64,000 nucleotides of DNA, taken from Acinetobacter puyangensis. GTDB lineage: Bacteria > Pseudomonadota > Gammaproteobacteria > Pseudomonadales > Moraxellaceae. The translations under genes and the position numbers were made by a program. The DNA lies in assembly GCF_900096995.1 (NCBI RefSeq), contig NZ_OANT01000011.1, forward strand, positions 1 through 64,000. Direction: 5' to 3'. The notes beneath the pieces were generated by a model, which worked only from the letters and a program-made list of their open reading frames with translations, had not been told where the DNA came from and made no database searches. Each line of letters starts with the position of its first letter. Position 1 is the stretch's first letter. Below, in pieces: positions 7,705 through 16,346 of this stretch.

Positions 7705-8453
7705 GGTGAAACTCCAAATCAATCATCTCTATAAAGGTGCGCAATTTTAGTCGTCTGTACCGGATGTGTCAATGCAAAACCCAATAAACTTGCTAAGTTT
7801 CGTTCAAAAAAAGCAAGAATGTTTGAATTTAAATTCAAAAACGTTATTTTAAATTTAAAACTTGCTTGTGTTGTATTTAATTTTGAATTCAAACTTGAGT
7901 TAACTGATATAAAGTTATCAACACTTCTAAATTCAAACAAATTCTTTCAAGATCAATTATAAAGTCTATGTAATACAAGCTATCTATGCTGTTTTATTGC
8001 TACAGATAGCATTAAAAGATATGAACACAGTCAATAGCGGTCACATCAAGCATGATATTTTTGAATTCAAATTTAAACTTTATCAAGTTTTCCCCAGTTT
8101 ACGGGCTTCTTATAATTAAATTTATAAATTTAAAATTTAAACTTATTATTATTAGCACCCGAAATAACTGTGGAAAGGGCTATTTTCTTTAAATTTATTA
8201 TAAGAATAGCGTGTGGATAAGTTTGTTTGCTTTAAAAGATTAAATTGTGGATAAGTTTGTGCTATATTTTATCCACAAGTTGTGATTAAAGTTATCCACA
8301 TGCTGTTTTGAATTTAAATTTAGTGTTGTCTGTGGATATTTTGCACATCCGTTGCGTATAACTTATGACAGCTGTTGATAACTTCGTTAGAATGGCGACC
8401 CTCTTGTATGGTGCAAGACGATTTTTGAATTTAAAAGAGATAGGGGACAAACT
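7705..8453. other. Chromosomal replication origin region (oriC)
   Basis: This 750-base AT-rich gap between rpmH and dnaA has no coding potential. Consensus DnaA boxes (TTATCCACA or its complement) are at 8212-8220(-), 8246-8254(-), 8269-8277(+) and 8292-8300(+). Weaker ones are at 7915-7923 (TTATCAACA), 8331-8339 (one mismatch) and 8373-8381 (TGTTGATAA). Interspersed are many copies of a TTGAATTTAAA-type motif, several forming perfect palindromes (7822-7839; 7847-7860), suitable for strand opening. The box at 8373-8381 is just before a TAGAAT -10-like hexamer upstream of dnaA, consistent with autoregulation. Position and content match origins between rpmH and dnaA in gammaproteobacteria. Confidence 0.93.
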
Positions 8454-14733: not shown

Positions 14734-14770
14734 AAAGCAGGCGATTCGTTAAGAATCGCCTGCTTTGTTT
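14734..14770 (+). terminator. Rho-independent terminator after gyrB
   Basis: A perfect 14-base-pair stem (14734-14747 with 14753-14766), loop GTTAA, is followed by TTGTTTC-type T-rich sequence. It is placed 68 bases after the gyrB stop and before the convergent small gene at 14796. The upstream arm has an A run, so it could also serve the minus-strand gene. Confidence 0.85.
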
Positions 14771-14795: not shown

Positions 14796-15044
14796 TTATT
14801 GTGCCTGAGTCTGCCAACGTTGTTGAGCTTCACTTGCAGAGATATTTAAAATTACTTTATCATTTTGAATATCCTGAATCCAGGAGGTCGGAATATAATG
14901 ATGCTGACCGTCAGCATCTTCGTCATTTTTGATCAGTTTGACTTGATCTTGACCTTCTAAATGATCGACACGTCCGACATGTTCATGATCAGAACCGAGT
15001 ACTTCTGCATGTTCTTGAATTGAATTTGGATCTAAAGTCGCCAT
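14796..15044 (-). CDS. DUF2171-family small protein
   Basis: An 82-aa soluble acidic protein with the DUF2171/PRC-barrel-like pattern: IQEHAEVLGSDHEHVGRVDHLEG, then KLIKNDEDADGQHHYIPTSWI. The function of the family is unknown; members are often stress-associated. The start at 15044 is chosen over 15056 because GGAG, lying inside the longer version's first codons, is well spaced before it. It stands alone, convergent with gyrB. Confidence 0.8.
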   Translation of the reverse strand: MATLDPNSIQEHAEVLGSDHEHVGRVDHLEGQDQVKLIKNDEDADGQHHYIPTSWIQDIQNDKVILNISASEAQQRWQTQAQ

Positions 15045-15824
15045 GGTATTCTCCATATTTATGTCTTTTGATTAAGGGTGGAACCAAATTTAAATGTTTT
15101 ATTCAGTTCCAGTACTCACTAAGCTAATATGAATTGACGTTAAGAAATAGACCAGAAAGATCACGTTATGTAAGATTGATAGTAGATTCTATTAAAGCGA
15201 TTATTATTTTAACAAAGTATTATATTTCAATAATTTAATTAAAATCCATAAAATTATGATGAAGATAATCAAGCAGTTGTATTTGTAATAAAACATATCA
15301 CTTCACTGTTCATGTAACCACGGTGAGATCTTGTATAACGTACATGCTTGATTTCTTACAAGTCATCAGTTGTTCATATCATTCTGGTCTAGGATCTAAA
15401 AAATACCTCCTTCTATAACGAATGTTATTGAGTTATCCACAGCGTAAAGATTAAATTTATTTTGAAGAAGGAAAGCATTGATATCTTATTTTTAAATTCA
15501 AAACATGGAATTAATTGATAAAATTTTGTGGATAACTTTGTATTTGAATTTAAAAAAATTAGTGCTATAAAATTATACTTGCGTTTTGCACAAGTTTATC
15601 CACAGTTTAAGTTTTTTAAATTTAAAATGAAAAATATTTCTTGCTGCTTTAATTATCCACATTGCTTTAAATTTAAAAGTGGCGTTATAGGGGGGAATTT
15701 TTTGAATTTAAAAAATAAGTGGGGCGGTGTGTGACTTTGGTTTAAAAATAAAACACGCTATAATATTTGATTATTTTATTGCCTAATTTTAGGTCTTCTT
15801 TTACTGTCGTCACTTAGCGGAAAT
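15045..15824. other. Intergenic region with a second DnaA-box cluster
   Basis: No gene is supported in these 780 bases. Four perfect DnaA boxes occur: 15433-15441(+), 15527-15535(-), 15596-15604(+) and 15653-15661(+). They are mixed with copies of the oriC-type AT-rich motif (about 15489-15503, 15542-15557, 15615-15630, 15665-15680, 15699-15716). A sigma70-like promoter for purE (TTTGGT at 15736, 17-base spacer, TATAAT at 15759-15764) ends the region. The first part (15060-15420) shows only AT-rich sequence. Confidence 0.8.
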
Positions 15825-16346
15825 ATGCCAATGAATGCGGTCAATACTGCCGATGCACAACCTTTAGTGGGAATTATCATGGGGTCTCAATCGGATTGGG
15901 CAACACTGGAACATACAGCAAATATGCTCGAACAACTTGAAGTTCCTTTTGAGGCAGAAGTAGTGTCAGCCCATCGTACACCCGACCGTTTATTTGAATA
16001 TGCAGAAACCGCGCGGCAACGTGGTATTCAGGTGATTATTGCCGGTGCTGGTGGTGCAGCACATTTACCTGGTATGTGCGCCGCCAAAACAGATTTACCA
16101 GTGCTTGGCGTACCCGTGAAATCATCGATTTTAAATGGTGTGGATTCGTTATTGTCGATTGTACAAATGCCGGCCGGGATTGCAGTCGGTACTTTGGCAA
16201 TTGGTCCTGCCGGTGCGACGAATGCAGCAATTCTGGCAGCACAGATTATTGCTTTAAATCATCCAGAAATTGCCGAAAATATAGCAGCTTTTCGTGCTGC
16301 ACAAACTGCAAAAGTAGCAAACAATAATATTCCGGGTCAGGCATAA
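15825..16346 (+). CDS. purE: N5-carboxyaminoimidazole ribonucleotide mutase
   Basis: A 173-aa class I PurE that converts N5-CAIR to CAIR in de novo purine synthesis. It has the conserved [25 protein letters not shown] and [13 protein letters not shown] motifs and a C-terminal helical tail. The start at 15825 (MPMNAV) could alternatively be the ATG six bases later. purK follows after 12 bases; PurK supplies the N5-CAIR substrate, so the two act in sequence. The TATAAT promoter at 15759 is the probable start of this operon, next to the DnaA-box cluster. Confidence 0.96.

Follow-up and report, generated by a model that had tools for sequence, protein, structure and literature searches.

A conserved cluster of DnaA boxes interleaved with AamA target sites near oriC of Acinetobacter suggests methylation-linked control of chromosome copying

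A cluster of exact DnaA boxes (TTATCCACA) interleaved with the 12-bp target palindrome of the orphan adenine methylase AamA (TTTRAATTYAAA) lies upstream of purE in the window (the whole 64-kb stretch of DNA that was analysed), and starts 6,979 bp from the start of dnaA. This conserved combination in the neighborhood of oriC suggests methylation-linked control of chromosome copying. Our preferred reading, in which our confidence is a little short of even, is that the cluster is an oriC-proximal cis element that binds DnaA and tempers initiation, and that is switched by methylation. To our knowledge, the timing of initiation in bacteria without SeqA is largely an open matter, and Acinetobacter includes a leading drug-resistant pathogen. 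The analysis names a single locus of ~300-600 bp, present in the majority of the Acinetobacter loci examined, at which an orphan methylase may control replication by way of a DnaA array.

The cluster upstream of purE

As shown in Table 1, four exact DnaA boxes were found within 229 bp, at the distance of 7 kb from dnaA given by the sequence-only reading that had first reported them near purE. The claim of that reading that this is a second cluster beside oriC also holds for the genome as a whole (3.78 Mb, 35 contigs), because oriC and the purE-upstream cluster are the only groups of at least three exact boxes within 300 bp among the 71 exact boxes present. The chance expectation for such a group, a Poisson estimate from the genome density, is ~1e-6 per genome, and the window contains nine exact boxes relative to 0.88 expected. 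The maximum obtained in 2000 dinucleotide shuffles of positions 15433-15712 was one box and two palindromes, compared to the observed four and five.

The sequence-only reading had also described a motif, TTGAATTTAAA, interleaved with the boxes and common to the cluster and oriC. The motif is indeed present in both (three exact copies in the cluster and four in oriC), but its boundary had been drawn slightly short: comparison of oriC, the cluster, and relatives extended it to the palindrome TTTRAATTYAAA. There are 24 such palindromes in the genome, of which seven are in oriC, five are in the cluster (within 222 bp), and the other 12 are scattered. The sequence-only reading did not recognize the repeat between the boxes as a methylase target. 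It also missed the richer version of the array that most of the examined loci carry elsewhere, between purK and the gene for a lytic transglycosylase.

The cluster (23% GC) is located in an AT-rich intergenic stretch between a DUF2171 gene, on the opposite strand, and purE (TIGR01162). Several boxes are present in a short intergenic stretch, as in the DnaA-box clusters (DBCs) described below, and AamA-type sites are grouped there, as in an AamA target region. A probable purE promoter begins 25 bp past the last palindrome; it was not among the matches of a promoter scan, and its region contains GCTATAAT in six of seven aligned sequences, the seventh (L011) having GTTATAAT. Rfam and tRNA scans of the 64-kb window gave no match. 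The distances between boxes and palindromes favor certain values, but the species are related and rounding pooled neighboring distances, so that this pattern supports no claim. A strong terminator-like hairpin (14 pairs) is located at 14734-14766, 3′ of gyrB and ahead of the cluster.

Table 1. Features of the purE-upstream cluster, its surroundings, and oriC in the window.
Feature	Position	Strand	Remarks
oriC AamA-type palindromes, seven	7822..8435	.	Starts 7822, 7828, 7848, 7882, 8060, 8307, 8424
DnaA-trio TAATAATAATAA	8143..8154	-	In oriC; missing from the purE-upstream cluster
oriC DnaA boxes, exact	8212..8300		8212(-), 8246(-), 8269(+), 8292(+)
dnaA	8454..9830	+	
gyrB	ends 14666		Precedes the DUF2171 gene
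DUF2171 gene, small	14796-15056	opposite to gyrB/purE	Between gyrB and the cluster
DnaA box 1, exact TTATCCACA	15433..15441	+	Identical in A. populi
AamA-type palindrome TTTRAATTYAAA	15491..15502	.	Motif is the AamA target in PMC10483419
DnaA box 2, exact	15527..15535	-	Identical in A. populi
AamA-type palindrome	15543..15554	.	Motif match
DnaA box 3, exact	15596..15604	+	Aligned exact boxes in A. populi, A. qingfengensis (L003), and L011
AamA-type palindrome	15615..15626	.	Motif match
DnaA box 4, exact	15653..15661	+	Aligned exact boxes in all seven purE-upstream sequences compared
AamA-type palindrome	15666..15677	.	Motif match
AamA-type palindrome	15701..15712	.	Motif match
Probable purE promoter	15737..15764	+	-10 TATAAT 15759-15764, weak -35 TTGGTT 15737-15742; inferred by eye
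purE	15825..16346	+	Downstream neighbor, TIGR01162

The element in related genomes

Conservation in related species, on which the sequence-only reading had staked its proposal, was found: the element is kept, at positions that differ between lineages. The closest comparison is with A. populi, the PurE protein of which is 95% identical to that of the window and in which the cluster is likewise located between gyrB and purE. The identical positions number 36/36 in the boxes and 59/60 in the palindromes, compared to 139/184 in the spacers. In A. qingfengensis (L003 and G259 are one genome), purE is 42 kb from dnaA on the opposite side relative to the window, and two exact boxes and three palindromes are still clustered directly upstream of purE. 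Within the populi/qingfengensis lineage, the cluster therefore remains with purE. Boxes 1 and 2 are not kept in the other five of the seven aligned purE-upstream sequences, and loci L002, L004, and L007 have a single exact box and a single palindrome by purE.

Of the 80 named purE loci, 75 have a cluster outside oriC with three or more features, the remainder being the three loci just described and two (L054 and L070) that end soon after purK. In most of the 80 loci, the array is located between purK and the lytic transglycosylase gene (SLT_2 domain; labeled mltB in this analysis) and is richer than the window cluster. The idea that the cluster is tied to purE as such was rejected genus-wide, because most of these loci have no box or palindrome upstream of purE and carry the array after purK.

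Together, the 65 purK-mltB regions span 42.6 kb and contain 658 palindromes and 119 boxes, whereas no palindromes and 20 boxes are present in the other 1.2 Mb of these loci; this count used fixed gene boundaries, but the region was singled out after being seen, and the 65 regions do not amount to as many independent cases, as greedy filtering left only six mutually dissimilar arrays. There are 6-15 palindromes per region, whereas the number of boxes is two in 45/65 regions and zero in 2/65. A test on arrays chosen by motif gave 739 palindromes relative to 1.9 expected, a value that is biased because the regions were picked by motif content. In pairwise blastn comparisons of the purK-mltB arrays, 50% coverage was reached in only 402 of 2080 pairs. 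The spacing of neighboring palindromes peaks at ~20, 25, 30-31, and 36-37 bp, roughly half-turn steps, in species that are not independent.

The element is ~7 to 125 kb from dnaA in relatives, on either side. In seven genomes for which 80 kb around dnaA was compared, there is an oriC cluster and a purK-mltB cluster 17-24 kb from dnaA, and two of the seven also have a cluster 3′ of gyrB. The purE gene adjoining the array is 12-26 kb from dnaA in 36 of 38 tabulated genomes. The largest distance is that of G113, ~125 kb on the assumption of a circular contig, with the array beginning ~1.3 kb from the start of mltB. In two genomes (L023 and L031, the latter being the same genome as G193), mltB is apart from purK and the array stays with mltB, and in L025, L036, L043, and L050 the array is split or displaced. 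In genus g10, which by PurE identity is the closest to Acinetobacter among the other genera, the array is ~2.4 kb past the start of purE, as in most Acinetobacter, and therefore the purK-mltB position is probably ancestral.

Many species (for example, L187, L199, and L232) also have a small cluster of boxes and palindromes past the 3′ end of gyrB, in many cases at dnaA +6.8 to +7.1 kb, which is close to the distance of the window cluster. At least one exact box was found within 2 kb of gyrB in 36/62 loci (31/57 without the five window-type loci), and at least three features in 25/62 (23/57 without them); these counts leave out L215, which has no gyrB on the stretch, and L198 and L203, which are too short. 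By position, it is possible that the window cluster is this gyrB-downstream cluster, and it may have descended either from it or from the purK-mltB array.

The placement of purE itself also differs, in that it is left of oriC (median ~19 kb) in 28 tabulated genomes and right of oriC, after gyrB, in the window and A. populi, and it is transcribed away from oriC in either placement. In one locus (L244, G216:C82), dnaN-recF-gyrB is inverted and apart from dnaA, due to a rearrangement or an assembly error.

AamA and its target sites

The palindrome TTTRAATTYAAA was identified as the target of AamA by SMRT sequencing of A. baumannii ATCC 17978 (PMC10483419). In that strain, as here, the palindrome is concentrated in two dense regions: methylated sites were densest and signals strongest in regions 1 and 2, which contained 29 and 9 sites, respectively, region 2 being at rnpA/dnaA. 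Region 1 would correspond to the purK-mltB array, because the G187 genome contains 14 palindromes there and four in oriC, equivalent to 28 and 8 strand-specific sites, which approximates 29 and 9. In the absence of AamA, expression of dnaA, rnpA, and pitA rose 1.5-2.4 fold and was not restored by complementation, whereas for a gene named mltA the value in the aamA mutant was 1.6-fold and complementation restored it (PMC10483419). The sites were read in that work as gene-expression switches; the term oriC does not occur in its main text, and no DnaA boxes are described in the parts of it consulted. The subtype TTTGAATTCAAA, which is present in oriC of the window, is missing from the table of methylated forms in the same paper. 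Similar motifs were found to be partly methylated in all A. baumannii strains tested in another study (PMC10287943), and a matching motif is also listed in a third study of A. baumannii (PMC13227989).

The genome of the window encodes two D12-class methylases. One of them (C24:145869-147161), in the gene order nrdR-ribD-methylase-ribE, fits AamA (A1S_0222), an assignment made because nrdR is named among the neighbors of methylase genes in PMC10483419; a PDB sequence search with this candidate gave no match. An AamA orthologue (at least 82% identity) was found in 66/66 Acinetobacter and 4/4 genus g10 genomes. According to PMC10483419, some Acinetobacter species are without aamA; none of the 66 genomes examined here lacked an orthologue. 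A triple-palindrome pattern is present in 55/66 Acinetobacter and 4/4 genus g10 genomes and in 0/129 other Moraxellaceae, and a reversed-pattern control was found in 0/199 genomes. Of the 11 Acinetobacter genomes that have AamA without the triple pattern, at least G155 and G193 carry sparser arrays. AamA relatives with 30-55% identity are encoded by nine genomes from other genera, in which arrays are lacking. The methylase and the array travel together by lineage, and the arrays are confined to the lineage with AamA orthologues.

Two further observations concern adenine methylation in the window genome. An isolated palindrome, TTTAAATTTAAA, at C24:145791-145802, ends 67 bp before the aamA start, within the end of ribD, which could reflect self-regulation or chance. 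A second adenine methylase (L263, C19:132590-133348) scored above the NCBIfam Dam-family cut-off; Dam is stated to be missing from Acinetobacter in PMC10287943.

A proposed role in initiation

The purE-upstream cluster has the same combination of boxes and AamA sites as oriC, minus the DnaA-trio. In the mechanism that we propose, the element would bind DnaA close to the origin, so that initiation is tempered. The fork would pass soon after initiation and leave the AamA sites of the element hemimethylated, and hemimethylated sites would change the binding of DnaA or of a partner until AamA remethylates them. DnaA binding at this site, methylation in this species, the hemimethylation switch, and an effect on the timing of initiation are inferred.

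Simple titration of DnaA appears weak because the boxes are few, amounting to 4 of the 71 in the genome, two in most arrays, and none in two of 65; therefore, the AamA methylation sites are probably the active half of the element. Among the proposals of the sequence-only reading, titration of DnaA in the manner of datA, or reactivation as at DARS, where specifically arranged boxes promote the release of ADP, may be the mode of action. We know of no reader of hemimethylated AamA sites. SeqA was found in 0 of 31 genomes searched, with a positive E. coli control, and so any reader would be other than SeqA. A more far-reaching version, which we regard as possible but clearly less likely than the cis element as such, is an independently evolved, methylation-timed control of initiation in which AamA marks oriC and a single dedicated DnaA-binding array nearby, and a reader of hemimethylated TTTRAATTYAAA (or DnaA itself) takes the passage of the fork as a reset. 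If true, the AamA system would fill the roles of both Dam/SeqA and datA in a lineage that lacks SeqA.

Several findings count against the preferred reading of a DnaA-binding, methylation-switched element. The element adjoins a gene (purE or mltB) and may thus act on transcription, 11 of the 66 Acinetobacter genomes are without the triple pattern, and the AamA relatives of the nine genomes from other genera are not accompanied by arrays. Loci L002, L004, and L007 retain no more than one exact box and one palindrome at purE, the TTTGAATTCAAA subtype of oriC is outside the tabulated methylated forms, and the rise of dnaA expression in the aamA mutant was not restored by complementation (PMC10483419).

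Alternative explanations

The main rival to an element acting on initiation is control of the adjoining gene, in which DnaA and AamA methylation would tune a promoter (that of purE in the window, and of the lytic transglycosylase gene in most species) and so couple purine supply or wall growth to replication. We consider this unlikely, although it has more in its favor than any other alternative. A gap of ~25 bp separates the cluster from the probable purE promoter, the array lies ahead of mltB and accompanies it in the two genomes in which mltB is apart from purK, and the expression of mltA, rnpA, and dnaA was altered in the aamA mutant (PMC10483419), although the mltA of that paper is not equated with the mltB here. 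However, the neighboring gene differs by lineage, the array is ~1.3 kb from the mltB start in G113 and is split or displaced in four other loci, and 6-15 palindromes per region seems excessive for one promoter. Furthermore, the mltB homologue of the window genome (72% identical) is on another contig, for which no palindrome is listed.

A less probable alternative, to which we give little weight, is that the element marks the origin domain for segregation or nucleoid organization, the AamA-site arrays being bound by a protein that recognizes the palindrome or its hemimethylated form, with the boxes secondary. The roughly five-fold excess of palindromes over boxes in the purK-mltB regions and the half-turn spacing of the palindromes (in species that are not independent) are consistent with such a mark, whereas the density of boxes in the same regions, far above that of the rest of the loci, and the presence of the same pair of motifs in oriC argue against it.

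The sequence-only reading had also proposed an auxiliary origin or the second part of a bipartite origin, and the sharing of the motif pair with oriC and the smaller cluster 3′ of gyrB in many species would fit a module that aids the opening of oriC by DnaA looping. The comparison with oriC does not support this proposal, and we regard such a module as very unlikely. Neither a DnaA-trio beside a box nor a switch in GC skew was found at the purE-upstream cluster. A search for trios of at least three units in 15057-15824 found none, and trios of at least four units were present in 49/65 oriC regions compared to 0/65 purK-mltB arrays, the two sets having been drawn from different genome samples. 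Cumulative GC skew across the window reaches its minimum within oriC, at 8160, and the curve is steadily higher by 15-16 kb. Therefore, the purE-upstream cluster is not a second origin; in addition, the distance and side of the element vary in relatives, from 7 to ~125 kb. The motif TAAATTTAAATTTA, which gammaBOriS lists as a DnaA-trio of Acinetobacter oriC, resembles the AamA palindrome.

It is scarcely credible that the cluster is a patch of AT-rich repeats that arose by chance, or a remnant of oriC in decay. Despite its low GC content and the low blastn coverage between most arrays, the dinucleotide shuffles came nowhere near the observed counts, and between the window and A. populi it is the spacers that differ, with the motifs kept.

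Relation to known systems

DnaA-box clusters outside oriC are known from B. subtilis, in which deletion of all six oriC-proximal DBCs results in early initiation (Okumura 2012, via PMC5295017), and a single DBC reinserted at various places partly relieves it (PMC5295017). The element here differs in consisting of one main cluster with interleaved AamA sites, and methylase-target palindromes are not mentioned in the parts of the B. subtilis source consulted. The datA locus of E. coli, a negative regulator by titration or by hydrolysis of DnaA-ATP (PMC5295017, PMC4451416), is likewise a non-coding chromosomal cluster of DnaA boxes, but it is >450 kb from oriC and needs IHF, whereas the cluster here is 7 kb away and contains AamA sites. 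As with Dam/SeqA in E. coli (PMC13201069), the sites of an orphan adenine methylase are concentrated at the origin; AamA, however, is a different methylase with a 12-bp target, SeqA was not found in the genomes searched, and the richest cluster is outside oriC in most loci examined. No publication joining AamA, DnaA boxes, and this locus was found in a literature search, with most subscription journals outside its reach. The present analysis joins the AamA methylome, with its two dense regions read as gene switches, to the architecture of the origin, two subjects that are separate in the literature searched.

The purK-mltB arrays may also account for some of the CRISPR arrays reported in A. 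baumannii. Those described in PMC8891609 contain 3-4 spacers and a repeat given as ATTTTGAATTTAAAA or as its complement. The AamA palindrome is included in this repeat, and judging from the motif these arrays are probably purK-mltB arrays (for example, L077:11834-12213) that were misread.

Two other arrangements of exact boxes were seen. A further locus, at G155:C20:20571-20604 and G157:C8:1525260-1525293, contains an exact DnaA box flanked by halves of the AamA palindrome. In the window genome, on a contig other than that of oriC, two opposed exact DnaA boxes (C23:128401-128425) are 16 bp apart from start to start, an arrangement that could be a DARS-like core.
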